A DNA stretch of 64,000 nucleotides from a virus. The stretch spans positions 1 to 64,000 of IMG/VR virus record IMGVR_UViG_3300032323_003610. One strand, written 5' to 3'. The notes under the pieces are model-generated. The model made no database searches, was not told the DNA's origin, and worked only from the letters and a program-made list of their open reading frames with translations. The translations under genes were made by a program, and so were the position numbers. Shown in pieces: positions 5,578-55,977 of the stretch (the stretch's first letter is position 1; every line of letters starts with the position of its first letter).

Positions 5578-5581
5578 TGTA

Positions 5582-6190
5582 TTATCCTTTGGGGTTTGCG
5601 CCAGTAGCTGGGCGTGGTGGGCGTTTTACTTTTGTCATTGGGCTGTCATTGCCCATGGGTAAATCATTTGTGGTCTTGGCAGGCGGTGTCTTGCCTCCGG
5701 CCACAGTAAACTCACTGCGGTAAGCATTCTTTAATACAGCATGCTCATTGTATGGAGCCGAATAATCAGCACTCAAGGCTTTTTGTTCTGCGTCAGGAGC
5801 AGGATAGTCTGTGTCGGTCAGAAGATCTGTGTTTTGATCCGCAATCTTTTCTTTTTCTAGGGCCATGCTGTCTTCATGTGCAGTGGTCAACATGATGATT
5901 CGATTGGGATCCATAAACAGCAGCTGAGCAATCTGTTTGATCTGTGGCTCAATGGCTGGGTAGCGGAATTCCACATCCATGCTGGTCACTGAATCGTTGC
6001 TGTGTGCAGGAAAGTCTGCAGGTTTGGCCTGTACCGGTGTGGTTTTGGTCTTGCCAATCTTTACTGGGTCAAACTGTTGAAGTTTTTGTTCCAGTTGTTT
6101 GATCATGTCTGGAGCAACATCGCCTACAATTTTGATTCGGTACGTGTAGGTTCTTTGGCTTTCGGACAGGTATTCGTGAAATTTTTTCAT
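5582..6190 (-). CDS. Conserved phage structural protein, 202 aa
   Basis: Starts MKKFHEYLSESQRTYTYRIK, with AGGGA eight bases before the ATG and a late promoter core at 6209-6214. The N-terminal eleven residues again look like a capsid-targeting peptide. The following ~90 residues (IKIVGDVAPDMIKQLEQKL, then SMDVEFRYPAIEPQIKQ) suggest a small alpha/beta domain, and the C-terminal third is Pro-rich and unstructured. I recall similar proteins near gp16 or gp4 in T4-like marine phages without a known role. It probably enters the prohead or binds the head. Confidence 0.65.
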   Translation of the reverse strand: MKKFHEYLSESQRTYTYRIKIVGDVAPDMIKQLEQKLQQFDPVKIGKTKTTPVQAKPADFPAHSNDSVTSMDVEFRYPAIEPQIKQIAQLLFMDPNRIIMLTTAHEDSMALEKEKIADQNTDLLTDTDYPAPDAEQKALSADYSAPYNEHAVLKNAYRSEFTVAGGKTPPAKTTNDLPMGNDSPMTKVKRPPRPATGANPKG

Positions 6191-6211
6191 ATTTTTATCC
6201 CTATATGATAT

Positions 6212-6712
6212 TTATGCTTTGTTATCTTTTTGGTCTCGACTGTTGATCAAGCGTTCCAGTAGATCGTTACGATTCAACACCTGGCCGTGAGCTGTTTCCA
6301 CAGTGGTTTCTGGCTCATTACGACGTTGGTCTTGATCCATTTTGAGTTTTTTCAATTGCAGATCCACCATCTTTAACTTCTTGTTCAACTTGGCTGTTTT
6401 GGCTGTGAGTGCATGACCCAGCATGGTACCGGCAACAGCAAAGATTTCACTTGAAAAACGGCTGTCCACATTGAATCCCAAATCCATGAGATTATCAAAT
6501 GTTTCTTGAGCTTTGGCCGCTAGATCGTCCAGTTCCTGATCGCCTGTTTCTAAATCTCGCACTGTGGGCAAGGCCGCATCTATTTTGTCTATGGTTGCAT
6601 CAAGATTGGCCAATTGTGCTCGAGTTTCGTCCACTGTGATTGTAGCCGGACCAGGCAGGTCAGTCTGCTCTATTTTATCAAATTCAAACAGTTCTTCAAG
6701 GCGTTTAGTCAT
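6212..6712 (-). CDS. 16: Terminase small subunit gp16-like
   Basis: A 166-residue protein that fits the T4 gp16 pattern: a short N-terminal segment with LPGPATITVDE, then a helical core of about residues 60-118 (SEIFAVAGTMLGHALTAKTA followed by KLNKKLKMVDLQLKKLK) that parallels the [20 protein letters not shown] core of T4 gp16. The small subunit recognises DNA and stimulates the large terminase during packaging. The large subunit gp17 is not in this window. A late-type TAAATA at 6717-6722 sits only four bases from the ATG and no ribosome-binding site is evident. Similarity was judged by eye; alternative starts are possible. Confidence 0.7.
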   Translation of the reverse strand: MTKRLEELFEFDKIEQTDLPGPATITVDETRAQLANLDATIDKIDAALPTVRDLETGDQELDDLAAKAQETFDNLMDLGFNVDSRFSSEIFAVAGTMLGHALTAKTAKLNKKLKMVDLQLKKLKMDQDQRRNEPETTVETAHGQVLNRNDLLERLINSRDQKDNKA

Positions 6713-6738
6713 ACCATATTTACCGCTGGTACAATAAG

Positions 6739-7176
6739 TTATTTTTTCTTGGCGCCCTGATGATAGATCATGTCTTCATTAATAACTCTAAAGGTCAGGC
6801 CGTTTTTTCTTGCCCATTTGGTTGCCGAGTCCCATTTGGCATAGTTCACAGCCACTATGGCTCGATCTCGATCATTCATTCGGCTTTCGATCAGGCTTTG
6901 TTTTTTGGGTTTGATTTCTATCAGTTCAGCCACAGTTGTGTTGTTGCGGCCGCGGTAGGTCACCAGGAAATCTGGCACATACATGCTTTGTTTGCCAGTT
7001 ATGGGATTGCGATAAGGTATGCTAATGCTTTCGCTGGCCCACTGCAACACGTTGTCGTTTGAATCCAAAAACATCATGAATGTCAATTCCCACCCTGAAC
7101 GATAACGGGGAGTGCCGCGACCCACATATTTGGCAGAATTTTTTACCACATACGCACCCTGTCTAAAATTGGGCAT
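6739..7176 (-). CDS. 4: Head completion protein gp4
   Basis: A 145-residue protein with strong resemblance to T4 gp4. It carries AYVVKNSAKYVGRGTPRYRS, then WELTFMMFLDSNDNVLQWAS, IPYRNPITGKQSMYVPDFLV, and the nuclease-like VAELIEIKPKKQ. In T4, gp4 (also called gp50/gp65-associated head completion) acts on filled heads before tail joining. The pattern E30 ... PDF ... E-x-K resembles a restriction-endonuclease fold (TnsA-like), as seen in the family. The length matches the family. It is the tightest match among the small head genes here. Confidence 0.88.
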   Translation of the reverse strand: MPNFRQGAYVVKNSAKYVGRGTPRYRSGWELTFMMFLDSNDNVLQWASESISIPYRNPITGKQSMYVPDFLVTYRGRNNTTVAELIEIKPKKQSLIESRMNDRDRAIVAVNYAKWDSATKWARKNGLTFRVINEDMIYHQGAKKK

Positions 7177-7179
7177 GCC

Positions 7180-7539
7180 TCAAATCCTGATATTTCTAGC
7201 CACGTACTGGTTGGGCTGTGTGGGTGCATTTACACCCAGCAAGGTGCTGGAGCTGCGTATGCCATTTAGATAGTAGGCCAAGGTCAGGGTAACCTCGGGT
7301 GCTGATTGTCCTTGGAACTGTTGCAACAGATCCATTACAGGAATGCCGGTCTGATGACTTACTCTAAATACTGATACTGTAAAATTTCCTGCTGCTTCAA
7401 GTGATCCAAACACTGATTTGAAATAACTCAGCACTGCATCGTAAGCGTCAACCGGAACCTGTTGTTCATAGCCATAAAATCTGTCAAATATCTGAACGGT
7501 TAAATCAGTCTTGGTGTTGATAGCATTTACCGAAGCCAC
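7180..7539 (-). CDS. Conserved tail or neck virion protein, 119 aa
   Basis: Starts at a GTG at 7539 (MASVNAINTKTDLTVQIFDR) preceded by a near-perfect GGAGGAT site. The protein is alpha/beta in character (VLSYFKSVFGSLEAAGNFTV, then VTLTLAYYLNGIRSSSTLLG) and ends at the RNIRI terminus. Short proteins of this type follow the tail-tube genes in T4-like marine phages, annotated as structural. It lies three bases from the tube-like gene and three from gp4, so a role at the tail or head-tail junction is likely. No specific function can be assigned. Confidence 0.65.
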   Translation of the reverse strand: MASVNAINTKTDLTVQIFDRFYGYEQQVPVDAYDAVLSYFKSVFGSLEAAGNFTVSVFRVSHQTGIPVMDLLQQFQGQSAPEVTLTLAYYLNGIRSSSTLLGVNAPTQPNQYVARNIRI

Positions 7540-7541
7540 GA

Positions 7542-8750
7542 TTATCCTCCACTGACCAGATTTCTAAGTTTAGTAGCTGCATCTATTCCATTTGGAGTGG
7601 GGAAGTTCATGCCGCCGCGGCCATTGGGCAACTGACCAATAGATCCTGGCACACCGATTCCGGCTGCAATGCCAAGTCCGGTTACCAGAGCAGGTCCCAG
7701 CGCACCAGATCCTGCCAGTGCTCCAGACAAGAAAGACGATGCTGCTGGCACTAATCCTTGTCCCACTGCACCCAACACATTTTGCAGAGTATTTTGTCCG
7801 GTGGACAAGGACTGTAGATCCTGTTTGCTGCCAATGGGACTGGCTTTTATAGTGCCTTGGATTTCTACTGTATTGGTACTGCCGGGCACGGCAATAGGAC
7901 TAGGTACAGTGTCATAAAATCCAGGATCAGCAAATCCTGTTACCGGATCACTGGGTTGTGCACCGCCAACTGCTCCAGAATAATACTTGACATTTTCATA
8001 ACGTATGCTCATGGTATGTGTCATGATACCACTGCCTTGACTGTAGTCGTAAGTGTCGTGTGCCCATTCTGTGATTAGTGGATTGATCATGGTGTATTGT
8101 GCGTAGGTCTTTTGGCTCATGCCGTACACAGTAATATCATTAAAAAATGGCAATTGACCACTGGCCGGGCCTGTCAGTATGGAACTGGCTAAACTTTGCA
8201 GTGAGGGGTTAGCATAGCCTTGGCCGTTGAGTCCCCATTTTTGCACAGGTCTACTGGCACTGTAAATGTCATTGCTGCCGTAACTGAATCCACTTAGAGC
8301 CGAGCTTATGTCGCCCAGAGTGCCTGACTGATTAGGAGTGTTTCCGTACTTGTAGACCGGATCACTGTAGTAGTATTGATAGTACTGGTACCACATGTTA
8401 CGAACCAGATCGCTGTGATCGTCATTGAACACTATCTGTGCTGGATTGTAATTGATTTTTGTTTGTACCAGACGTTTACGATTGTACTGGTTCATGGTGG
8501 CCACATCAATGGTATAGCCAGGTAATTGTACAGATTTAACTGCAAGACCAATGGTGCTAGACTTGCCGCCTGAGACCAAGTTGGCCACAGCAGGTATATT
8601 TGTGTTTAAATTGAAATAAACATAAAATAAAAATTTGGTACGGGGCGCAAGATCGTAGCCGCCAGCCCGAAAGGTCTTGCTGGCGTGGGTATAATCTCTT
8701 AACCCTTCGCCGGGCGGAAAAGGTTGTAGGGACTCTTGGCCAAAAGCCAT
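7542..8750 (-). CDS. Tail-tube-like virion protein, 402 aa
   Basis: The N-terminal half reads like a second gp19-type tube fold: YDLAPRTKFLFYVYFNLNTN, then AVKSVQLPGYTIDVATMNQY and NRKRLVQTKINYNPAQIVFN, followed by DDHSDLVRNMWYQYYQYYYS, which echoes the tube protein's strand-strand-DD helix order. The C-terminal ~130 residues are Gly, Ala and Pro-rich and probably flexible. Related proteins next to gp19 occur in cyanophages and pelagic myoviruses. It could cap or initiate the tube or form a baseplate-proximal ring. That role is inferred. Confidence 0.65.
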   Translation of the reverse strand: MAFGQESLQPFPPGEGLRDYTHASKTFRAGGYDLAPRTKFLFYVYFNLNTNIPAVANLVSGGKSSTIGLAVKSVQLPGYTIDVATMNQYNRKRLVQTKINYNPAQIVFNDDHSDLVRNMWYQYYQYYYSDPVYKYGNTPNQSGTLGDISSALSGFSYGSNDIYSASRPVQKWGLNGQGYANPSLQSLASSILTGPASGQLPFFNDITVYGMSQKTYAQYTMINPLITEWAHDTYDYSQGSGIMTHTMSIRYENVKYYSGAVGGAQPSDPVTGFADPGFYDTVPSPIAVPGSTNTVEIQGTIKASPIGSKQDLQSLSTGQNTLQNVLGAVGQGLVPAASSFLSGALAGSGALGPALVTGLGIAAGIGVPGSIGQLPNGRGGMNFPTPNGIDAATKLRNLVSGG

Positions 8751-8756
8751 GGATTA

Positions 8757-9380
8757 TTAACCTGTGGCTACGTTGTTGACTGTCAACGGAATTGACGCTC
8801 CAACACCCACATCTGCACCAGTTGTTGTTTGTAATGCATTGTCGTATCTAATGGTCATGGACACTGACATTACACTGTTGTCGCCGTAGTCAGCTGAATT
8901 ATAGTTGACTCCCTGCAGATAGCAACCTTGTATGGTCCAGGTTTCAAGAGCAATAGGAACATTAACGCCGTTGCCGCCGTCCAACACTTCAAATACCGTG
9001 ACAAATTTATAATCAATACCACTTGCAGCACTGCTTTGCTCCAAGAAGTCCAGTTGTTTCTGCAGTTGTTCGCCAACCAAACGACTCACATTGCCTGCGG
9101 CGTCGTCGCGCAGTTCGCAGGTGATGTCGGTCCACTCGTGTTTGCCAGCCAGACGTATAGTGCTGTTGTAGATAGGCAGGTCAATGTTGGCAAAAGTCAC
9201 ATTAGGACGAGAGAAATTCATGACCTGTTTGGTCAATTCTGTTGTGGGTTGTGATACGCCCAGACCTAAAAAAGTAACGCGAAAGCGATACTTGAGTTTT
9301 GGCATCAGCAGACCCTGAGCCGAGTTGCTTTGATCGCTGGCCAACGGTACGGTCAGTTTGGTTAGTGATGCTGTTGCCAT
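8757..9380 (-). CDS. 19: Tail tube protein gp19
   Basis: A 207-residue protein, slightly longer than T4 gp19 (163 aa). Diagnostic stretches are MPKLKYRFRVTFLGLG, MNFSRPNVTFANIDLPIYNS and the GKHEWTDITCELRDD turn, ending with MSVSMTIRYDNALQ. Gp19 hexamers stack to form the inner tube through which DNA passes. AGGAGAATAA precedes the ATG, and a late promoter core (ATAAATAA) lies at 9405-9412. It is directly downstream of the sheath gene, the order known from T4. The identification is secure. Confidence 0.92.
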   Translation of the reverse strand: MATASLTKLTVPLASDQSNSAQGLLMPKLKYRFRVTFLGLGVSQPTTELTKQVMNFSRPNVTFANIDLPIYNSTIRLAGKHEWTDITCELRDDAAGNVSRLVGEQLQKQLDFLEQSSAASGIDYKFVTVFEVLDGGNGVNVPIALETWTIQGCYLQGVNYNSADYGDNSVMSVSMTIRYDNALQTTTGADVGVGASIPLTVNNVATG

Positions 9381-9404
9381 TTGTTTATTCTCCTAATATG
9401 CTTT

Positions 9405-9412
9405 TATTTATG
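9405..9412 (-). promoter_or_regulatory. Late promoter of gp19
   Basis: ATAAATAA on the minus strand, with AGGAGAATAA and the ATG at 9380 downstream. It lies between the sheath stop (9456) and the tube start. Confidence 0.6.
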
Positions 9413-9455
9413 GTGTTTGAGTCGGGCAAAATTCTAGTGATTTGCCCGACATCAA

Positions 9456-12400
9456 TTACGCAGACTGCTGAGCTGCAATAGTTCCTGTGTTTTGAATACG
9501 CATTGGTATGTAGATAAATTCTACAGCCTTGACTGGTTCAATTGCAATATCCACATACAACTCGTTGGCATCAATTGTTGCAGGAGTATTGTTTGTTAGA
9601 TCGCAAACCACCAGATAATCATACAGACCGCGCTTGTTGACCAGGTCAACCATGAGACTTGTTATCTGATTAGTAATCGCGGCTCTGGTAATGGTGTCGT
9701 TGGGTTCAAACAGGTATTGATTACCAATAATCTCCAGACGTCCACGGATGAATGCTACCAAACGTGCCACGTTGATACGGTCTAACGCTGTAGCTGTGCC
9801 TTGTAGAGTATGGTTACCAAAATTGGTAATACCCGTGCCAGGTATGAATGTAATTGGATTTACATTGTTGCTGTACAACACATCACGTAGACCTTGATTT
9901 ACTCCCAAGGGTGCAAACTCTCCGGTAGCAGCATCAAGATAACCAATCTGCAAGGCATTGTCCACTACTCCGCGGCGCAGTCCAGCAGGTGCAAACCAAG
10001 GATATGCCACGCTGTCACTACGAATAATTGTACGCAACATCATGTGACTTGGTGCGGTCACAACCACGTTGCCGGTCAGATCAGTTGTGGTACAGCTTGG
10101 GTAAAATGCAGCAGCATATGAATCACCGCCAGATAAATTTCCGTCACCGGTGGCCAGTCCAAGACCATTGTTGTTGGTTGACCATGTGACCACTTCGTCT
10201 GGAGTCAATCGTAACGGTGTGTCCACAATACTAAATGCCGTTTCACCGCGATCGTTATTGAGCACCACCATGTTGGGTGCCAATTCTGGATACTGTGTAC
10301 ACACTATCAAATTAAATTGCGCCTGCTGTTCACGTAACTGTGTGTTGGTATCAATGGCAACTCGTAATGCTTGTACAATCAAGCTGCGTTGGGCCTGACG
10401 GCCCATATTGGGACTGCCGTCTGCACGGTTAGGGCTGGCTGTGACCCAGGCATTGGTCTGGCTGGGCAATACCAATGGTGCTGGATAGTCCTGACTATTA
10501 AAATAGTTGACCTGGAATGATTTAACATTAAATCCACTACGGCGTGTGTTGAACAACAAGATACCTTCAGGATACAGATCAGGATTGGGTGCATCAAGAT
10601 CCAGATAGTTGCTGGTGATCAATGGTGTTGAACCTGAGGCAATCGGTGGAATTGGATCTGTGATGGGATTCGTTGTGCCGTTAGGAGCCCAACGTGCATC
10701 GGCAAAAAGTACTCCATTGATCGTGGTCTGATCGGAGTTGTTTATGATAACCCACTGATCTTCGCCATTGACCGGTTGCCAACGACTGATTACCGGATAG
10801 TTTTCCAGGTCGGCGGTATTGATCCACAAGTCGCCGTAGGCCAGTGGACTTTCTGCTGAATCGGTCTGCGTGACCGGTGCTGTGGCACTGAATATTGGTC
10901 CAGAAGCATTGGTCAAACTCAGATCAAATCCACGAACATCATTGTCGACGTTTTGATACCCAACCCAGTTACCGTTGTTTTGTATCATGATGTCGGCAGT
11001 AGTTGCATCGCTGTAGTACCACAGAGTGCCGTCAGCCGGATCAATGTTTGGTGCACTGGCAGATGCTGTATAAACAAAAGTTGGGCTACCAACCCAGTTG
11101 CTGAGCGTGAGGCCTGTGCCGTCAACATCAGTCTGAGTAATTCCGGTTACTGCTGTAGTAAACCCAGCATCCACAATTGGAGTATTGGTGCCGTCTACTA
11201 GATAAATGTCACCACCGGTGGCATGTGTGAAGAAAATTGCGCCGGCAGCATTTACACTAGCACTGACATTGTCAACTCCGGCAGCACTGACAGCTGCTAC
11301 AAAGTCAGCTGCTGTAGTACCGTTAATAGTCACAGTTACTGGAGCCGCTACCACAGTTGACTCAGGCTGTGTGGCAGCCAATGTAAATGTGGATGCATTG
11401 ACAAAGGTAGGATTTTCAACAGCACCAGTAATTACCGTGGCGCCAGGAGACAATCTTTCAAGAATCAACGCACCAGATGTGGCGTTGTTATAGGGATCGA
11501 TCTGAGCGTATGTGGTACCAGCTGGAATTGATTGACCGCCCGAAGTTGGATCCAGTGCATAGAGTGCGGCAGCATTGTTGGCATAAACTGGACAACTTTG
11601 CAATACAAACACACCCAGGGTAGTGTCATAACGTTTGACCTGAATCTGCATGCCTTGATTTACACTGTTGGTCTGTTGAAAAACACTGCCGGTGGGTTCT
11701 GGTTGTACATCTGTGGACCGCCATCTTGGTGCACTGAAGTTTGGACCAGCAAAATAAGCAGGAGCTGCATATTCGCCTGCATCAATATCCAACGTGGCCA
11801 ACGGAGTGCCGCTGACGTTGTTGATGGCAATAACGCCTGTGCCTTCAGTGCTGCCGTCATTGGTTGCTGTGCTGTCTGCGTACAGTGTTAATTTTCCACC
11901 AATGTTGGCAGCATAAACTCCACTGGCATTTAAGGCAGCATTGATGTCTGTGACCAAACGAGTCACGGTATTGTTGGGACTGGCTTGAACTGTGATTGTA
12001 ACATCATTGATGGCAAAACTGTTGCCCACTGTCAAACTAGTAGGAGCAAGACCTCCCTGGATTGTGGGCCAAGCAGTTTTCCATTCGTCGCTACCAATCA
12101 ACACCCAGGTGTTGTATAAATCTTGGGCACTGGCACCGTCTTGTATCCATCCAGGTGCTTGATTAACACCGTTAACTGTGGTGGGACCTCCACGCTTGTA
12201 GTAGGTTGGGTTGTACACGTTGGTAGCTGTGACTGCATAGTCACCAATACTGCCAAAACTGGGCAAGGGTACTGTGCTGCCTGTTTCTAAAAACACTGTG
12301 TCAACAATTACACTGGGTGTTTTTCTTGTGAATGCAGAAGTGGATTGATTCCACTCGGTTAGACCCCAGGTAGTGTTGGTAGTGTCTAGCCAGAAAGTGC

Positions 12401-47160: not shown

Positions 47161-48162
47161 TTACTGTATTTCTATGTTTGTAATTTTACTTTTTGACAAG
47201 TCGTGTATATTTGGTTCTAGTAATTGATGTAGTTGTTTTGTATTTGTAAATTTTTCTAGTTGCCAGGTTTTTAGGTTTAAATTGTGCTTATAAATTAATT
47301 CGTGTTGAATAATTGCTTCTTGTACAATGTCTAGATTTAATCTCATTAAATCTAAATCATATCCTGATTTGATATTGTCAATAATGGTATCAAAATACCA
47401 AACAAATAACATTCTGTTAAGGTGAAATCTACGCCATTGATTATAAACAGTATTCCACTGTAATCGACGATCTTCGATTATAGGAACTCCTAAATAACTA
47501 AACAAATTGTCTACTGTTACATCAAATGTATTCCATAACTCCATTGTGTCTAACCGATAATGTTTTTTTGATAAATCTATGTTTGGAATAATAGATACGT
47601 TGTGTGTGGGCATTAGATTTAATGCTAAAAATTCCCGTTGATCCCAGATGTTTATTAACGACAATTCTTTCCACGCAGACCGAGAGTCTTTGAAAAAATA
47701 ATCAATAAAATCTTCAAGTGCTTCGTGATCTGTGCTAATTTTTTTTGCTGGATCGTTCCGGGACTCGACTTCATCGCTACGAATTTTATATGATTTGTTA
47801 TACAAAAAATGATTTTTAGATAATGTTAATATTATACGTTGATTGCTATCTAGATTAGATATAGCCGTCGCAAGATCCTTATCATATGATGTTGTAGTAA
47901 ATGAAAAATTATGAAAATATATAGTATGAAAATTATCCACCGGGGTTGACGCCAATGCCGAGTGTATTAAATTAAATGTATCTAATGTACTTGGCTGATT
48001 TGGTTTAAAAACGTGAGAATTTTTAATAGTTAACGGGTTTTCAGGAACAGTTATCCAACGGTTTGATTTAGCATGATAGTAATTTTTATGTCCAGCAAGA
48101 AAGTGCAAACTCCATGTAAGGAATGTGCCGCCAACTCCAGGGTCAGTTAAAACTTCTATCAT
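47161..48162 (-). CDS. Unknown AT-rich accessory protein, 333 aa
   Basis: Starts MIEVLTDPGVGGTFLTWSLH. The G-x-GGTFL-x-WS segment resembles the phosphate-binding loop of sulfotransferase-like proteins, but no second motif is secure. YFHNFSFTTTSYDKDLATAI, RIILTLSKNHFLYNK, and a Trp/His/Leu-rich C-terminal helical part follow. Base composition is visibly more AT-rich than the structural genes. It follows GIY-YIG and radical-SAM genes on the same strand, suggesting a cargo island. Function unknown. Confidence 0.65.
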   Translation of the reverse strand: MIEVLTDPGVGGTFLTWSLHFLAGHKNYYHAKSNRWITVPENPLTIKNSHVFKPNQPSTLDTFNLIHSALASTPVDNFHTIYFHNFSFTTTSYDKDLATAISNLDSNQRIILTLSKNHFLYNKSYKIRSDEVESRNDPAKKISTDHEALEDFIDYFFKDSRSAWKELSLINIWDQREFLALNLMPTHNVSIIPNIDLSKKHYRLDTMELWNTFDVTVDNLFSYLGVPIIEDRRLQWNTVYNQWRRFHLNRMLFVWYFDTIIDNIKSGYDLDLMRLNLDIVQEAIIQHELIYKHNLNLKTWQLEKFTNTKQLHQLLEPNIHDLSKSKITNIEIQ

Positions 48163-48178: not shown

Positions 48179-48607
48179 TTAAATTTTGTTTTTGATGTGA
48201 CTACCGTGTATACGGCAAACTATCTGTCCGTTGTACCAGTCGTCTGATTCTAATACTCTATGATTGAATTGTTCTCTAGCTTCTACATAACTGCATTCTG
48301 CCTTTGATTTACAATAAAATAATATTTCTCTTGTGAAGTTGTCAGCGCCCAGCGCCAGTAGGTCTCGATTGAGTTGATCATTGCTGCCATAGTATAGTTG
48401 CCAGTCTGAATCAATTTTGCTTCTAATTTTTTTCTTTTTCTTGTTGCCGTTTTTTAATTTTATTACTTTGTATGAGGTTTTACTAAATTTTGCTAATTTT
48501 TTTCCAATGTACTTTCTTCCTGTTACCGTGTTTGTTATTAGGTAAACAAACCCTACACAGTCTTCGGGTAGTTGTTCAACGTGAGTGTTTTCGTACAACC
48601 ATATCAT
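48179..48607 (-). CDS. GIY-YIG endonuclease-like protein
   Basis: A 142-residue protein. FVYLITNTVTGRKYIGKKLA (residues 20-39) is a GIY-YIG motif with V-Y for GIY and KYIG for YIG. A Lys-rich loop (LKNGNKKKKKIRSK), LYYGSNDQLNRDLLALGADN and YVEAREQFNHRVLESDDWYN, with the catalytic Glu in EARE, follow. It could be a free-standing homing endonuclease (Seg-like) that spreads neighbouring accessory genes, fitting its position in the AT-rich island. No target site can be read from sequence. Confidence 0.8.
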   Translation of the reverse strand: MIWLYENTHVEQLPEDCVGFVYLITNTVTGRKYIGKKLAKFSKTSYKVIKLKNGNKKKKKIRSKIDSDWQLYYGSNDQLNRDLLALGADNFTREILFYCKSKAECSYVEAREQFNHRVLESDDWYNGQIVCRIHGSHIKNKI

Positions 48608-48631: not shown

Positions 48632-49495
48632 TCAACTCAGTTGAATTTCGTATTGCCACTGGTCTTGAAATGCTGTAGTCTTGTTGCTAGTACAAACACT
48701 AGCACAGGTCTCATTTGGGTTATTTGTTTTCCATGTTTTTTTAACTTCACTAATGTTGGCTATGGGATTAACAATGCTGTTTCCTAACCAACAGCACGGA
48801 ATTCTGCGTCCGCGGGCATCGACATATTCGCTTTTTTCCGCTAGGGCCTGGCACTTAATTATACCAGTTTTGTTTTTGGGAACTTGCCAATCTATAGGTG
48901 CCTCCAGCCCGTTGACCATTGGGCGCTTACTGACCTTTGCCCTAAACCACTTGAATCCCATGGTTCTGGCCAATTGTTCGCAAGCACTGACCTGATGTTG
49001 ATTGTGTTTGTAAACAAGCATGTCCCAATGAGCATTACCATTCCCAGCAATAAATGCGGTTGCATTACTCATTAGCTTGCGCCAATCAACATTCCGCCTA
49101 TAAATGGCGTTGGTGTCCTCTAATCCATCGATACTAAACACACAATAATCTCTGGGCTGGTTAAATATCTGTGCCAGTTCGTGCCACCAGAATGTTGTTT
49201 GTATGGCACCATTGGTATTCATACCTAATACAATATTGGGATTTATTGTTCTAAAATATCTATACAAATCCAAGGTATATTTTCCAGCTGCTGGATCCCC
49301 ATAGTTCCCGCACATGAACACTTTTTGTAATTGTGTCAACTGCATCTCGGAATATAGATGTTGTATTTGTTCTACACGCAAGTGATGTTGTGCGGATTTA
49401 TTAAAATCTGTCCTGGTTTCTCTAGCACACAAAGGGCATGCAGCCTGGCACACATCTGTGGGCTCTAAGTGAAGGACCTTGGTTTTACTAGACAT
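48632..49495 (-). CDS. Radical SAM protein with SPASM-like C-terminus
   Basis: A 287-residue protein from the ATG at 49495 (MSSKTKVLHLEPTDVCQAAC). Cys16, Cys20 and Cys23 form the C-x3-C-x2-C cluster motif. MCGNYGDPAAGKYTLDLYRY corresponds to the GGEP region, followed by NTNGAIQTTFWWHEL and FSIDGLEDTNAIYRRNVDW. C-terminal Cys residues (IIKCQALAEK, IPCCWLGN, ETCASVCTS) suggest an auxiliary cluster of the SPASM or Twitch type. It overlaps the preceding radical-SAM gene by eight bases. The substrate is unknown; peptide or nucleoside modification is possible. Confidence 0.82.
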   Translation of the reverse strand: MSSKTKVLHLEPTDVCQAACPLCARETRTDFNKSAQHHLRVEQIQHLYSEMQLTQLQKVFMCGNYGDPAAGKYTLDLYRYFRTINPNIVLGMNTNGAIQTTFWWHELAQIFNQPRDYCVFSIDGLEDTNAIYRRNVDWRKLMSNATAFIAGNGNAHWDMLVYKHNQHQVSACEQLARTMGFKWFRAKVSKRPMVNGLEAPIDWQVPKNKTGIIKCQALAEKSEYVDARGRRIPCCWLGNSIVNPIANISEVKKTWKTNNPNETCASVCTSNKTTAFQDQWQYEIQLS

Positions 49496-50744
49496 TGATA
49501 TCTTTAATATTTTGGTCATAAAAAAATTGATCAATTTCGGGCCACAATCCACGCCAATTGGTGTTTCGCCGATGATCAAGTTGATCAAGGGTTAATTGTA
49601 GTTTTTTTAGCCTGGTCGGATCAATTTTACTAGCTAACAACAGGTTGACAAGTCCTAATAATTTATTTTTGTATAAATTATCTTGATCAGTTGCACAAAC
49701 AAAATTGTTTGCAATATCGTGTAGTTGTTGGGAAAAAAATTCAGAGCCAAATATTTCTGGATGTAAAGTAATTGAATTTTCTCCATCCACTACAAAATAA
49801 TCCTGCACAATAGAGGGATTAATTTTTTTCCAAGAAACAATTTTAGATTGAAACTCGTTTGTAGTTTTGATACTAAGTGAGGTCAACACCTGATGTATCG
49901 ATAACTTTAACCATTTGTGTTTAATTAGATATTCAAAGTTTTTTTCCCATTGATCCAATTTGATGCCATATCTAATAAACTCTTGTTGGGAGCCCCAGCA
50001 GTCAAGGCTGATATGTATATCTGCACGCTTGATTAATCTATTGATCAGTAGTTCTTCAACAGTTTCTACATACTGTTGTATTTTTTCTGTGGGAGCATTC
50101 AGGTTGGTATTAATAGAAATTTCCAAATTTGGATTGGCTTTCTCTTTTAAAAAATCTAATATTTTCCATAGATTTTTTTGTAACATTGGTTCACCGCCTT
50201 GAATAGCAAATCTGGTTAGATGTTGAATATTTTGATCTAACCAATTAAGATAGCGATTAAAATATTGATCGCTGTCAATTGACCTTGAAAAATAATTTAA
50301 GCCAAGTATAGTTGGTCCAAAATTTTTAAGCTCGTCGTTGATACGTGAACTAAAAAATGGTTGACAATATACACAAGCTAGATCACATGTGTTATCTAGA
50401 TACACTTCACAAAGACTAGGAATTACATAGTCGGACTCACCAAAATTAACAGGTTGTTGATCTGGTATTTGATTATGATACAACCGATCACTTAGCCCAT
50501 GTTGCTTCTCAACGTCGTGACAGTATTCACACCCCCGACCCGAGGGCCATTCTCCTTTTCGCATAAGGGCCCGATCTTCTAAAACCTTGGGCATATTATG
50601 AAAATTTTCAAATTGATCAAGGGGAACAAATTCTGAGTTAACTCGATGACACGAGCTAGATGTACCGGTATGAAATCTAAAAGTATTCCATCCCCACTTT
50701 AGCACACAAGCTGAATCATTTTGTATTGGAAATATTTTAGACAA
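49488..50744 (-). CDS. Twitch-type radical SAM protein
   Basis: A 418-residue protein starting at a TTG at 50744 (MSKIFPIQNDSACVLKWGWN) with AGAGG seven bases upstream. Cys120, Cys124 and Cys127 (NTCDLACVYCQPFF) form the radical-SAM cluster. RFAIQGGEPMLQKNLWKILD holds the GGEP motif, followed by LEISINTNLNAPTEKIQQYV and DIHISLDCWG. An N-terminal C-x-x-C site (GRGCEYCHDVEK near 72-75) adds a metal ligand. I know such 'twitch' radical-SAM proteins from T4-like marine phages, function unknown. It overlaps gp46 by eight bases, so it is co-translated with a recombination gene. Confidence 0.83.
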   Translation of the reverse strand: MSKIFPIQNDSACVLKWGWNTFRFHTGTSSSCHRVNSEFVPLDQFENFHNMPKVLEDRALMRKGEWPSGRGCEYCHDVEKQHGLSDRLYHNQIPDQQPVNFGESDYVIPSLCEVYLDNTCDLACVYCQPFFSSRINDELKNFGPTILGLNYFSRSIDSDQYFNRYLNWLDQNIQHLTRFAIQGGEPMLQKNLWKILDFLKEKANPNLEISINTNLNAPTEKIQQYVETVEELLINRLIKRADIHISLDCWGSQQEFIRYGIKLDQWEKNFEYLIKHKWLKLSIHQVLTSLSIKTTNEFQSKIVSWKKINPSIVQDYFVVDGENSITLHPEIFGSEFFSQQLHDIANNFVCATDQDNLYKNKLLGLVNLLLASKIDPTRLKKLQLTLDQLDHRRNTNWRGLWPEIDQFFYDQNIKDINV

Positions 50745-52500
50745 TATCTACCTCTGTATTGTAACTGGTAAAGCCGCCTTCTTTTACAACCTTGAGAATG
50801 TTTCCCACTCGTCCAGCCAATTCATCTCTGTGGCTGACCAGCCAGATACTCTTGTGGCGCTCGCGGCTCATGTGTTTCAACAAGCCCAGCGCATTTTCAA
50901 CACCTGCGGTATCTAGGCCATTGTCGATCATTTCGTCAATGAACAAGAGATTGATGGGCTGATATAAACTTTCAAACACATCGCGGAATGCCCAGCTCAT
51001 GCTGAGAATCAATCGGTTGCGTTCACCACGACTTAAATTGTCAAAGTCCAGTTCACGTCCCAGTTCCTCGATGCTGACTGTGAGATCGTTCTGGAATACC
51101 ACTGTGTGTGGCAAGCCCACACGATCCAAGTAGTGGGTCAGTCTGGTATTGAGATAGCTCAAATTCTGTTCAATGATCTTTTTGCGTATAAAGCTGTCCT
51201 TGCTGGTCAACAGCTTGAGTAAAAAGTCCTGGTGTTCCTGCAAGCGAGTCAAGTTGTTGAGAGTGTCATAGGAGATTTCCTGTAAGGCCGCACCAGTCAT
51301 TTCTTCAATCTGCTCGCTGTAGGGATCTGTTTCCGCAGATTTGTCTGCAATTTGTTTTTCTAAATTGGTCAGGGTGGCCTGGTGATGCACAGCATCTGCT
51401 TCGTTGTCATAAAACATTGTGGGCGGCTTGCCTAGCGTGCCCAAGGAGGCGTGGGTAGCCTCCAGTTCTGATAACAGGGTGCTAAATTCTGTGCCACTCG
51501 CTCGCGCCGTTGCCAGATCTGCCTGCTTGCTTTCCATAACCTGTTGGTGCTTACTGTCGTGGAAGGCTTGCCCACACGTATGACATTCATGGTTCTCGAG
51601 CGTTTCAATTTCTTTTGATAGTTTTGCCGCCAACTTTTCCTCCCGGCCGATGTCCAATTTGACTCGCGAGATCTGACTTGATAGTTCGTTGATATCCTTG
51701 CGTTTTTGATCCCATGCCTTATGATCCTTGTGCGCCCGTATCTCTGCCTCAATCTGTATATTCTGTAGCGACTTGAGGGCTTTCTCAAGTTCCGTGATAT
51801 CTTCCGCATGTTTGGTAGTCCATAGGGTTTGTCTACGCTTCAGTGATTCGATCTGTTCTTCGATGCGTTTATTGGCCTCTTGAACAGCACGAATACGGAA
51901 TTCTTCTTGTGTAATGCCTTCCTTGGTAGATCTGTTGTGTTCTTTGATCCGGTCAGCACGTTCACTCAGCATGGTAATGCCCAGCAACTGTTCAATGATG
52001 GCACGCTGGTCGTTGGCTTTGAGACTCAAGAATGGCTCGGTATAAGTGTTAAGTGCCAAAATATGTTTGAACATTTCGTGGCTGAGTCCGAGAATATGTT
52101 CAATGGCATCCTGTGTTTCTCTTGAGTCGCCCTGTGCTTCGTCTGTGGCTGTTTGTTCTGCATTGTTGACGTAGAATTTCAACACATTGGGCTTGCGACC
52201 ACGCTCGATCTTGTAGGACTGTGTGCCCACGGCAAAATCCAAACTCACCAACATGTTCTTGCTGTTGGTCTTGTTGACCAGATTGTCCTTGCGTATGTTG
52301 CTGAGTGCTTGTCCGTACAAGGCATAGCTGAGAGCATTGATGATTGTGGTCTTGCCTGTGCCGTTTCTGCTTCCGTCACCGCCCAGATCCAGATTCTCTC
52401 CTAGGACCAGGGTAAGATCCTGTCTATCAAAATCAATACCTTGAGTGGCATTGCCCACACTCATAAAATTTTTTACTGTTAAATTTTTAATTTGGATCAT
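50737..52500 (-). CDS. 46: Recombination nuclease ATPase subunit gp46 (SbcC/Rad50-like)
   Basis: A 587-residue protein. Walker A (GSRNGTGKTTI) is at residues 43-53. Long coiled coils flank a zinc hook with CHTCG near residue 310. The ABC signature (NLSRGERNRLILSMSW) and Walker B (INLLFIDEMIDNG) lie near the C-terminus. With gp47 it processes DNA ends for recombination-dependent replication. In T4 the two genes are adjacent; here two other genes separate them. A TATAAT with extended TGC lies five bases before the ATG, within a GCTAT/ATAGC inverted repeat. Confidence 0.94.
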   Translation of the reverse strand: MIQIKNLTVKNFMSVGNATQGIDFDRQDLTLVLGENLDLGGDGSRNGTGKTTIINALSYALYGQALSNIRKDNLVNKTNSKNMLVSLDFAVGTQSYKIERGRKPNVLKFYVNNAEQTATDEAQGDSRETQDAIEHILGLSHEMFKHILALNTYTEPFLSLKANDQRAIIEQLLGITMLSERADRIKEHNRSTKEGITQEEFRIRAVQEANKRIEEQIESLKRRQTLWTTKHAEDITELEKALKSLQNIQIEAEIRAHKDHKAWDQKRKDINELSSQISRVKLDIGREEKLAAKLSKEIETLENHECHTCGQAFHDSKHQQVMESKQADLATARASGTEFSTLLSELEATHASLGTLGKPPTMFYDNEADAVHHQATLTNLEKQIADKSAETDPYSEQIEEMTGAALQEISYDTLNNLTRLQEHQDFLLKLLTSKDSFIRKKIIEQNLSYLNTRLTHYLDRVGLPHTVVFQNDLTVSIEELGRELDFDNLSRGERNRLILSMSWAFRDVFESLYQPINLLFIDEMIDNGLDTAGVENALGLLKHMSRERHKSIWLVSHRDELAGRVGNILKVVKEGGFTSYNTEVDIV

Positions 52501-52502
52501 GT

Positions 52503-52514
52503 GCTATTATAGCA
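52503..52514 (-). promoter_or_regulatory. Extended -10 promoter before gp46
   Basis: TGCTATAAT on the minus strand (TATAAT at 52506-52511), five bases from the ATG at 52500. It is part of an inverted repeat (TGCTA...TAGCA). No clear -35 box. It would let gp46 be transcribed independently of the two genes inserted upstream. Confidence 0.55.
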
Positions 52515-53453
52515 TTAATCGATTGAAATGTTGTGTCTTTTGACAAGATCCCGATAAACTTGAGTCTCAGATGACACAGTTCTGTCAAGTTCTTGTAAAC
52601 TAACATTCCATGGGTTATAGTTTAGTGTTTTCATTGTTGCTTGTACCTCGGGGGACCTAAGTGCGACTCTGATATCTCTTTCCAGTATTGTTGCAACATC
52701 GTTGGGCACACCTTTGTTAATAAAAAATGAAATCCATGCGGTGGTATATCTAAATTGGTTGTGTGTCAGTTCTGTCAGGGTTGGTACATCTGGATAGCTT
52801 GGGTGCCGAGTAGGACCGGCATACGCAACATATTTGATCTTGTTCGCTTGTTCCATCTTGGACGACGAAGCAATAGTCGAATACCCAAACAACACATCTT
52901 GATTGCTAACATCAATGAACCATTGGTTGAAATCTCTATACGGAACATGGGTCAATTTGATTTTGTAAAAGTCACCGAGTTCTAGTCCAGCCATGTGCCC
53001 GGTACTGCCAACACTCCACGAACCAAAGGTAGAACTGTTTCCCAGTTTGTACCTAAACTCATGAAAGTTTTTTGTTTTGGGCGAAGTAAACAACATCAAG
53101 TGATTCAAGGTAACAGGGGCCAGGGGCCGGATGTTTTTGATAATTTCTGTGTTTTTGTAAAGAATCGGATATGACACCACATTGCTATCGCTGTAATACA
53201 AACTGTAACCATTTGCTGGTTCTTTGTTGTAGGCCAGTAACCCAACGCTGCCGCCACCGCCTGGCCGATTGTCAACAACTACCGGAACATTCCAGTTTTT
53301 ACTCAATTGCTCTGAAATTTGTCGCAACAAATTGTCGGGTCCAGAACCTACCGGAAGAGAAGTGATAATTTTCACTGGTTTGTCTGGAAAGGTAGATGCA
53401 TGGCTCAGGCATGTGCCTGCCAATAAAATTAGTGTAAGTAATATTTTTTTCAT
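52515..53453 (-). CDS. Periplasmic solute-binding protein, Bug/TctC family
   Basis: A 312-residue protein. Residues 1-19 (MKKILLTLILLAGTCLSHA) form a signal peptide, followed by STFPDKPVKIITSLPVGSGP, NVPVVVDNRPGGGGSVGLLA and YNKEPANGYSLYYSD, the family's opening pattern (YP-x-KPV-x-x-I-x-P, VVV-x-N-x-PGAGG, P-x-DGYTL). DNRPGGGGSVG and KVPYRDFNQWF match the ligand-binding turns. In bacteria these proteins feed tripartite tricarboxylate transporters with organic acids. It overlaps the previous gene by four bases. A solute-binding protein of this family in a phage is unusual. Likely acquired from a betaproteobacterial host. Confidence 0.88.
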   Translation of the reverse strand: MKKILLTLILLAGTCLSHASTFPDKPVKIITSLPVGSGPDNLLRQISEQLSKNWNVPVVVDNRPGGGGSVGLLAYNKEPANGYSLYYSDSNVVSYPILYKNTEIIKNIRPLAPVTLNHLMLFTSPKTKNFHEFRYKLGNSSTFGSWSVGSTGHMAGLELGDFYKIKLTHVPYRDFNQWFIDVSNQDVLFGYSTIASSSKMEQANKIKYVAYAGPTRHPSYPDVPTLTELTHNQFRYTTAWISFFINKGVPNDVATILERDIRVALRSPEVQATMKTLNYNPWNVSLQELDRTVSSETQVYRDLVKRHNISID

Positions 53454-54931
53454 TTGTTTTTCTCTCTAAAGTAATTTCTCAACGCAGGTTGATCCAGCTT
53501 GAACCCATTGCTGTATGTGTCTTTTTGCAGATAGTCAAAATCTGTAAATTTGATTTCGAGTTTGTTGTACATGTTCGAATTCACATCATCAAAATCAATC
53601 TTGCCTTGCCATACGATCAGATAAAGATTTTGATAGTGCGGATCCATACATATATCAAACTCTCCATCAAATACTTCCTTGACGGTTTCAATCACATTGG
53701 CCAGTTTGAATTCAACATGATCGATTCTGTAGAAATTGTCTCGGCCCAGGTGATAAAAACCGGTTTCTACCGAACCTTCAAATTTATCGTCTAACTGTTT
53801 AATGTCATCATACCATTCGGGGCATGCTACACTTAATGTTTGTCCATCTAAAAAATATTCAAACGCATTGTCTGGCGGATAACCTACAAAATTTTCTTTG
53901 TAAGTATTAACATCTTCGTTGGGTGTTATATGCTTCATCAACACCGGAGACATGGTTTCTGTAGTTCCAAGTATTGCTATTATCTTTGTGGCGTTTGTTT
54001 GTTTTACATAGTTCAAGTATTTTTTAGGAACATATTGTCCACCGATGATCATGTTGAACTCGTGCTCAAATTTGATTTGATTGGCAATCATATACTCCAT
54101 GACTTTTTCCATGATGAATCGAGCCGAAAACGCAATCTGATTGATCTGATTGTCTCTAATGTATCCTACAAATTTTTCTAATTGGTCTTGTGTGATTTTG
54201 TTTGAAATTGCGATGCTGTAATGATTTTCAATTTTGTGCAAGGCCGGCATAAAAAAGTCTGTCAGCACAAAAGGATGATGCATATTTCTAGTATGACATG
54301 CATGATCGTCACTGGAAAAACCATACACAGACACATTTCTTTCTGCATTTCTATACAATTGACAGTGTGTGTAAGGCACTAGTTTTGGTTTTCCTGTGCT
54401 GCCACTGGTTGTTGTGATGGTTGCAATATCGTCTGGTTTGGCAAACACCGTGGTCAATAGCTGTTCATACACAGCGTGATCTTTGATTTCATAGTCATAA
54501 AACACCTGCTTGAAAATAACAGTCTTTCCATAATACCGGGCCAGGGCGACCAACAGTTCAGATTCTTCGGCCTGCTCATCTAAGATAAACAGGTCAATGT
54601 CACCATACACTGCAACAATCTCGTCCATTTTATCGGTTCTACCACTGGTGGTAGCAGGCATGTCTGGACTGATGACCAATCTTGCTCCTAACTCCAAAAC
54701 AGCTAAAAATAATGTGCAATAACTAAACCTAATGGTTCGGTCATACAAGACCACAGTGCTACCAGGACGAATTCCATAGCCTTCGTACAGTATGGTTTTC
54801 CAGTAGGTGATGTCCTCCACACAATTTTGATAGTTCTTTGTGGGCAACTCAGGGCCATCGTAGAATTTTATATTTTTTGGTAGAAAATTTCTACTAATAA
54901 TTTCGTCGGGTTTGGGCATAGGTGTAATCAT
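53450..54931 (-). CDS. ANL-superfamily adenylating enzyme
   Basis: A 493-residue protein of the acyl-CoA synthetase / NRPS adenylation type. The P-loop TTTSGSTGKPKLVPYTH is at ~173-189 and the A5-type GTTETMSPVL near 319. The A8-like GRDNFYRIDHVEF lies near 405-417, and the catalytic-lysine region NGFKLDQPALR at 475-485 places K478 where the A10 Lys is expected. It would activate a carboxylic acid as an acyl-adenylate, then transfer it to CoA or another acceptor. The acid is unknown. It overlaps gp47 and the solute-binding gene by four bases each, so all are translated in series. Confidence 0.87.
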   Translation of the reverse strand: MITPMPKPDEIISRNFLPKNIKFYDGPELPTKNYQNCVEDITYWKTILYEGYGIRPGSTVVLYDRTIRFSYCTLFLAVLELGARLVISPDMPATTSGRTDKMDEIVAVYGDIDLFILDEQAEESELLVALARYYGKTVIFKQVFYDYEIKDHAVYEQLLTTVFAKPDDIATITTTSGSTGKPKLVPYTHCQLYRNAERNVSVYGFSSDDHACHTRNMHHPFVLTDFFMPALHKIENHYSIAISNKITQDQLEKFVGYIRDNQINQIAFSARFIMEKVMEYMIANQIKFEHEFNMIIGGQYVPKKYLNYVKQTNATKIIAILGTTETMSPVLMKHITPNEDVNTYKENFVGYPPDNAFEYFLDGQTLSVACPEWYDDIKQLDDKFEGSVETGFYHLGRDNFYRIDHVEFKLANVIETVKEVFDGEFDICMDPHYQNLYLIVWQGKIDFDDVNSNMYNKLEIKFTDFDYLQKDTYSNGFKLDQPALRNYFREKNK

Positions 54932-55941
54932 AAATTTTGATAGATTTGTAATAGTAATTTTGGATCGTAAAACTCTGAAGAGATGTTTGTGATTTGATCC
55001 GTGACAATTTGATCTACGGATTCAAATCGAACTTCTCCTGGTGCCATATCTGTGTCCACAGAATTATTTTTTACTGGAATCAAGGCCATTTCACGCAAAC
55101 TGTAATCCTTGACAAAGGTATCCTTGATAAAATTTGCCTCTTCATAACTGATATCAATGTCCAATTCTACACGCACATGCATGTTGGGAACTAATATATT
55201 GGATGCGTTATCAATTACTTGGCTTAGTTTAAGCACACGATACAACGGTTGACCTGGCCAGGCATGATATTCTGGTTCGCTACCCCACTCTAATATCATC
55301 ATACCGCGAGCATCATCGCCCGCATCGGCAAAGTTGTGCGGAAAACAATTGCCAATATAGTTGATGTTTTTTTTCTGTTGCCGTAAATGAAAATGCCCAG
55401 AAAATACCTTGTCGACCCCGCCAAAACTATCAACTCCAACTTCGCCGTGATCTGGCATTTCTACCATGGCATTCATTTTGAAATGTGGCAACTCAAAATG
55501 CCCAAACATATACTTAGCTGACATTTTGGGAATTTTTTTATGATCGTCTCCGACCAGCCAGGGCGCGATTACCACATCACCATCCGAAAACCAGTCGTTG
55601 ACAATCTGTATATTAGGAATGTGTTTGGCCCACTCAGTTGAGTAGATATCACGTTTATCACGATAATATAAGTCGTGATTGCCAGGAATAAAATAAAATC
55701 TATCAAATGCTGCTGATAATTTTTCTAGGCTACGCAAACTATACTGTAGAGTCTGCATGTTTATGGCCGCTCGTTGATGACTCCAGTCGCCCAGGAACAT
55801 GCCGGTTTCGCAACCGTTCTGTTTGGCTGTAGCTATAAACCAGTCAATAAAATCGCTACAGTCTTGATTATGCACAAGACTGTTGGATTTTAAACCAAAG
55901 TGAATATCGGTACATACTGCTACTTTTTTAAATAGGCTCAT
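54928..55941 (-). CDS. 47: Recombination nuclease subunit gp47 (SbcD/Mre11-like)
   Basis: A 337-residue calcineurin-like phosphoesterase. Metal-binding motifs are in order: DIH at 12-14, GDWSH at 51-55, GNHD at 87-90, GHFE at 147-150 and SGHFH at 181-185. It is the nuclease partner of gp46. A sigma70-like promoter (TTGTAA at 55972-55977, 17 bases, TATACT at 55949-55954) is seven bases from the ATG, giving a nearly leaderless early transcript that should run on into the ANL and solute-binding genes. Confidence 0.95.
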   Translation of the reverse strand: MSLFKKVAVCTDIHFGLKSNSLVHNQDCSDFIDWFIATAKQNGCETGMFLGDWSHQRAAINMQTLQYSLRSLEKLSAAFDRFYFIPGNHDLYYRDKRDIYSTEWAKHIPNIQIVNDWFSDGDVVIAPWLVGDDHKKIPKMSAKYMFGHFELPHFKMNAMVEMPDHGEVGVDSFGGVDKVFSGHFHLRQQKKNINYIGNCFPHNFADAGDDARGMMILEWGSEPEYHAWPGQPLYRVLKLSQVIDNASNILVPNMHVRVELDIDISYEEANFIKDTFVKDYSLREMALIPVKNNSVDTDMAPGEVRFESVDQIVTDQITNISSEFYDPKLLLQIYQNL

Positions 55942-55948
55942 AGCTACT

Positions 55949-55977
55949 AGTATACACTACAGATTTGTGTTTTACAA
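55949..55977 (-). promoter_or_regulatory. Sigma70-type early promoter of gp47
   Basis: TTGTAA (55972-55977), 17-base spacer, TATACT (55949-55954), then seven bases to the ATG at 55941. Confidence 0.65.

Follow-up and report, generated by a model that had tools for sequence, protein, structure and literature searches.

Why would a giant phage carry two metabolic genes between gp47 and gp46, which encode an SbcD/Mre11-like nuclease subunit and an SbcC/Rad50-like subunit? This question is raised by the window analyzed here, a 64,000-nucleotide stretch (positions 1 to 64,000) of IMG/VR virus record IMGVR_UViG_3300032323_003610, whose 68,759 bases are a fragment. Four minus-strand genes follow one another in the window: gp47 (54928-55941; Metallophos PF00149, 1.7e-8; SbcD-like PHROG 100, 1.4e-57), a 493-residue adenylating enzyme of the ANL superfamily (53450-54931; AMP-binding PF00501, E 1.1e-20), a 312-residue Bug/TctC periplasmic solute-binding protein (52515-53453; TctC PF03401, E 1.6e-26) and gp46 (50737-52500; SbcC-like PHROG 77, 1.1e-102). 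An earlier interpretation made without database searches (the sequence-only reading) had proposed this order, and family scans back all four identities. Its four-base ATGA overlaps, between the gp47 stop and ANL start (54928-54931) and between the ANL stop and Bug start (53450-53453), are both read directly in the sequence. The explanation we favor, with a probability of about 0.57, is that ANL and Bug make up an auxiliary metabolic cassette that can pass from phage to phage and that occupies a recombinational docking site at the gp47-gp46 junction of giant phages related to PA5oct, with Bug capturing an acid that ANL adenylates.

The corresponding intervals were compared among IMG/VR relatives, sampled as 80 viral loci found with the window gp47, 80 found with a distant gp47, and others from ANL and Bug searches (L numbers denote loci and G numbers contigs). 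ANL and Bug are not a universal feature of T4-like phages, as evident from the 152 distinct gp47-gp46 intervals, of which 53 are empty and 99 hold 0.5-4.9 kb of cargo. Close relatives have the site empty or differently filled, as befits a hotspot; L008 and L009, for example, with gp47 at 92% identity, have empty slots. Cargo open reading frames (ORFs) are co-directional in 165 of 166 cases. The 3′ end of gp47 forms the left wall of the site and the 5′ end of gp46 the right wall. In most empty slots gp46 overlaps gp47 by four bases, and the first cargo gene has the same overlap in 53 filled slots.

Cargo is highly varied. Within the subset selected through gp47 (139 slots, 86 filled; best hits only, not a census), radical SAM genes are the most common (35 slots), whereas ANL occurs in five slots and Bug in two, and the window cassette is therefore a rare cargo. 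Other slots carry sulfotransferase, DUF6071/SGNH-like, methyltransferase, 2OG oxygenase, Fic, SDR, epimerase, GIY-YIG or HNH-like genes, the SGNH and HNH labels being partly read from sequence. A family of ~400 residues, bearing no more than a weak resemblance to arginine deiminase, turns up repeatedly in the slot (L020, L028, L189) or near Bug genes, with further members at L104 7011-8156 and L007 6888-8078. Flanking gaps vary as well, exceeding 300 bp between the sigma factor gene and gp47 in 37 of 139 cases and between gp46 and the GIY-YIG gene in 80 of 118. Because the junction takes so many unrelated cargoes, the link of ANL and Bug to the recombination genes is only positional, and we rejected the functional tie to early recombination that had been proposed for them.

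Movement of this cargo between phages is evident from pairs of loci. The ANL-Bug segments of L034 and L119, from different metagenomes, are 94-99% identical in 100-base windows, while gp47 is 58-68% identical (about 63%) until its last part, and identity drops again inside gp46. Likewise, ANL is 87-95% identical between L041 and L097, with flanks mostly at 56-76% and a break at the gp47 stop; these two loci come from one metagenome, and L098, from another, has the L097 arrangement. The 3′ end of an endonuclease gene survives as a remnant in both L097 and L098 (27 residues, 56% identical to the L176 cargo); in L097 it is preceded by a stretch resembling the start of gp46. In L035, a hybrid ORF (5820-6344) located between two cargo blocks fuses gp46 residues 1-42 to gp47 residues 206-337, which is the scar expected from recombination between two filled slots. 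Together, the transfer pairs and this scar establish the junction as a recombinational docking site, and one that is general to many unrelated cargoes. On the gp47 tree, moreover, 15 ANL carriers require 12 changes, at least 10 of them forced by well-supported branches, showing that ANL was gained or lost repeatedly.

We consider it extremely improbable that an assembly error fused host and phage genes to create this locus. No other contig carrying the window's alleles turned up, but the same arrangement recurs in several independent metagenomes, the four-base overlaps are in frame, and both the ANL family and the Bug clade are phage-specific, with no close cellular ANL. For the arrangement as such, the recurrence in independent metagenomes led us to reject an artefact.

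Both proteins look functional, judging from catalytic residues, the signal peptide, confident predicted folds and purifying selection in relatives (ratio of nonsynonymous to synonymous substitution, dN/dS, of 0.08-0.21 where measurable). The AlphaFold model of ANL (predicted local distance difference test score, pLDDT, 91.4) is full length and includes the C-terminal domain, and matches in the PDB agree that N- and C-terminal ANL domains are both present. Its nearest PDB folds, at 12-16% identity, are nonribosomal peptide synthetase (NRPS) and aryl- or acyl-acid adenylating enzymes. Residues G177, T179, H213, H219, G322, D382, R397 and K478 are invariant in 22 phage members, and S176 is nearly so; they correspond to core motifs A3 (P-loop), A4 His, A5, A7 Asp, A8 Arg and A10 Lys, with D382 assigned to A7 by spacing. 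The enzyme has no match in named phages or plasmids, a genome-wide scan with its signature returned no relative, and the best cellular ANL in 274 genomes of one class scored only 47 bits and is no near relative.

The Bug protein scores 93.9 bits against Pfam TctC (cut-off 27), and its model (pLDDT 89.4) is closest to the structures of Bug27, TphC and TBP, with the two-domain Bug fold present (TMq 0.84 to Bug27 and 0.81 to TphC). Residues 1-20 are a predicted signal peptide, with a hydrophobic core and an SHA site read from the sequence. Fifteen slot-type phage Bugs form a single clade (SH-aLRT 100) adjoining or sister to Burkholderiales Bugs, and some similar plasmid Bugs reside in protocatechuate or maleylacetoacetate catabolic clusters. 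The window Bug matches no named phage and no PHROG family; a different phage Bug gave one weak match among named phages.

Are ANL and Bug partners, or unrelated passengers of separate pathways whose adjacency is metabolically meaningless? We consider the latter unlikely. It draws on the breadth of cargo that the slot accepts, on the occurrence of each gene alone, and on L003 and L074, which share Bug (87% identical, gp47 also being close) and differ in ANL allele (53% identical, synonymous sites saturated), so that single genes within the cassette are exchanged too. However, pairing lies well above the slot background: eight of about 10 slot Bugs, counted by lineage, have an ANL neighbor, compared with five of 86 filled slots generally (p 5e-9, an indicative value only, as lineages were grouped by the analyst and some loci came from Bug or ANL searches). 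Furthermore, Bug and ANL distances are correlated (Mantel r 0.58, p 0.0004), and the pair is found in both gene orders and also outside the slot (L114). In L177 (9011-11745), ANL is preceded by a 447-residue protein that reads as a multi-spanning membrane protein and is possibly a transporter replacing Bug; it received no assignment from Pfam, PHROGs or the PDB.

Alternatively, ANL might help to build a small molecule or to decorate a surface, together with the radical SAM, sulfotransferase and SGNH-like cargo. Bug would then supply a precursor or serve a side role, and the chemistry would be modification rather than catabolism or coenzyme A (CoA) activation. The cargo pool does resemble biosynthetic enzymes, the structures nearest to ANL are those of NRPS and aryl-acid adenylating enzymes, and one relative (L316, G276 256500-268500) carries at 3774-7970 a second, canonical ANL beside tryptophan-halogenase-like and carbamoyltransferase genes, near radical SAM-like genes. 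That cluster, on a 345-kb phage contig, looks like a specialized-metabolite cluster. For the slot enzymes, however, no carrier protein was seen adjoining ANL, and the partners of Bug favor uptake and breakdown. These include TctA and, in L108, L109 and L110, a ring-hydroxylating dioxygenase (L110 being an ANL-Bug-dioxygenase set); the L108 large subunit best matches anthranilate dioxygenase AndAc, although its 375 bits fall short of the 750 set as equivalog cut-off. We therefore judge a biosynthetic role improbable.

Bug proteins also occur elsewhere in this lineage. Further Bugs, outside the slot clade, are encoded on 10 of 17 long contigs, with up to three each, and many of them adjoin a protein with an SGGxDS PP-loop motif. 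This motif is invariant in a PP-loop-like family of ~390 residues found next to phage Bugs and TctA (L317, L320, L321, L327, L328, L330, L332, L334, L335, L337, L112, L115, L120), which has no PHROG match for the members tried, no significant PDB match and no Pfam assignment. TctA itself is encoded on two giant-phage contigs, G279 (L315) and G290 (L324, L336), and neither TctA nor the PP-loop proteins match named phages. In L315 (G279 300500-313500), the interval 4899-10913 holds a putative phage-borne transport cluster, in which TctA is flanked on one side by a PP-loop protein and on the other by genes encoding a secreted protein, a binding protein of the DctP type and an MFS transporter. Another phage Bug subfamily (L318, L319, L325, L328, L329) is followed by two genes for proteins of ~208 and ~220 residues, the first weakly sulfotransferase-like.

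Most partners of Bug are ATP-dependent enzymes of the adenylating type, three slots feature an aromatic-ring dioxygenase, and comparison among loci points to capture plus adenylation as the common theme. A broader and more tentative possibility, which we hold to be somewhat doubtful, is a lineage-wide program of solute scavenging in which several secreted Bug families, sometimes TctA, and an adenylating enzyme (ANL or PP-loop) are traded as plug-in cassettes, so that infected cells would import scarce organic, perhaps aromatic, acids and commit them to phage use.

Several observations weigh against a capture-and-activate cassette. No TctA gene, and hence no complete tripartite transporter, is present in the window's 68.8-kb record, which is a fragment. 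ANL occurs without Bug in L041, L089, L093 and L139, and Bug also occurs without ANL. The PP-loop assignment of the SGGxDS family is at the level of a motif. Finally, the best NCBIfam matches of ANL to substrate-specific models fall far below cut-off, so that it does not reach the acyl-CoA ligase class; because it also has no near cellular relative, we place it in a phage subfamily. Nevertheless, the cassette for capturing and activating an organic acid, as envisioned in the sequence-only reading, stands as the best interpretation of what is real metabolic cargo recurring as a pair in several phages; only its functional tie to recombination falls away.

Under the favored reading, Bug would be exported during infection and capture an organic acid, perhaps an aromatic one, for delivery to a TctA-type transporter; two relatives encode such a transporter themselves, whereas here it would presumably be that of the host. 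ANL would then convert the acid to an acyl-adenylate and may pass the acyl group to an acceptor, whether CoA or another. Cargo is oriented like gp47 and usually adopts the stop/start overlap of empty slots, which suggests that it is translated by coupling to gp47. The transfer pairs and scars show that cargo is swapped through recombination within or close to two conserved stretches, the 3′ end of gp47 and the 5′ end of gp46. Homing endonucleases, which enter the slot as well, might set off these exchanges.

A promoter-like -10 element frequently sits immediately ahead of the gp46 start codon. The sequence TATAAT occurs no more than 45 bases upstream of gp46 in 36 of the 99 filled slots and 13 of the 53 empty ones, compared with 2% of cargo windows, most commonly at -14 (17 cases). 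The extended -10 element previously ascribed to gp46 in the window is indeed there, as TGCTATAAT at 52506-52514 on the minus strand, immediately before the gene. Its TATAAT begins at -11, and therefore the gp46 transcript is predicted to start at about the start codon. In the window (52506-52511 and 55949-55954) and at the gp46 starts of relatives, -10 boxes precede the gp46 and gp47 start codons by 8-14 bases, implying near-leaderless transcripts of both genes. Upstream of gp47 there is a weak -35/-10 pair, TTGTAA-17-TATACT. Across the region as a whole, promoter-like matches show no excess over shuffled sequence. As a sequence signal, the gp46 element would preserve expression of this gene after insertion.

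Beyond gp46, beginning with an 8-base overlap, come a pair of minus-strand radical SAM genes, a GIY-YIG gene of the SegE type on the same strand, and one further gene. The first radical SAM protein has a twitch domain (49488-50744; NF033640, 208.5 bits, cut-off 170) and is cargo of the gp46/GIY-YIG gap, the second (48632-49588) matches PF04055 at 5.1e-5, below cut-off, and the GIY-YIG protein (48179-48607; PF19835, 1.8e-32), present in most relatives, bounds this downstream variable gap. Adjoining the GIY-YIG gene is a conserved 333-residue protein (47161-48162), with homologs on either strand in several relatives and no match in Pfam, PHROG or NCBIfam. No tRNA gene that might hint at the host is present in the window.

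Judged by gp46 (53% identical), the closest relative with a name is PA5oct, a giant phage of Pseudomonas, in which the late sigma factor gene, gp47 and gp46 directly follow one another. The expectation that gp47 and gp46 are neighbors in relatives holds for PA5oct, where they overlap by one base, but not for Atu_ph07 and Phosso, where small ORFs intervene.

The uptake proteins known from phages mostly serve phosphate, along with a handful of other nutrients. If our interpretation is true, phages would be steering how dissolved organic acids are used, and the specificity of this control would be open to tests on single genes. The gp47-gp46 slot is also a well-resolved natural example of how metabolic cargo can be swapped while an essential gene pair stays intact. 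Searches that covered few subscription journals found no literature on phage TctC/Bug; what looks like 'tctC' in PMC8290583 is the sequence of a primer. Within the same coverage, the pairing of Bug with an adenylating enzyme, the gp47/gp46 socket and its scars appear undescribed, although the kind of element, auxiliary metabolic cargo at a plastic phage hotspot, is known.

Comparison with known systems places each part of the locus. The window Bug resembles Bug27, BugD, TphC and TBP in its TctC score, fold, signal peptide and first-ligand-loop aspartate, but belongs to a phage clade with its own GSGPD and (G/N)xW(F/Y)xD-type motifs and has no TctA or TctB beside it. ANL shares its fold, P-loop and other core motif residues with the aryl-acid and NRPS enzymes EntE, PltF, AuaEII and MenE, from which it differs in its 12-16% identity and a shortened A7-A8 region. 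A tripartite tricarboxylate transporter gene has been seen on a viral contig before, as a tctA match in a SUP05 virus (PMC4164917); that case is a single domain match, without Bug, ANL or a defined insertion site. The homing-endonuclease-driven marker exchange of T4 seg and mob genes, for which essential-gene promoters near the insert are described (PMC2988022), has parallels here in the free-standing GIY-YIG/HNH-like genes or remnants in or beside the exchanged interval and in the promoter-like element near the insert. Most gp47-gp46 cargo, however, lacks an endonuclease, and cleavage at gp47/gp46 is hypothetical. Precedents for the slot itself are the hyperplastic region of marine cyanomyoviruses (Millard et al., 2009, cited in PMC2993671) and further hotspots at which T4-like phages gather auxiliary metabolic genes; there, metabolic genes that vary among relatives likewise occupy a plastic spot between conserved T4-type genes. 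The present site, in a phage whose host group is probably not cyanobacteria, differs in its position at the gp47/gp46 junction, its stop/start-overlap socket, its recombination scars and its Bug/ANL cargo.

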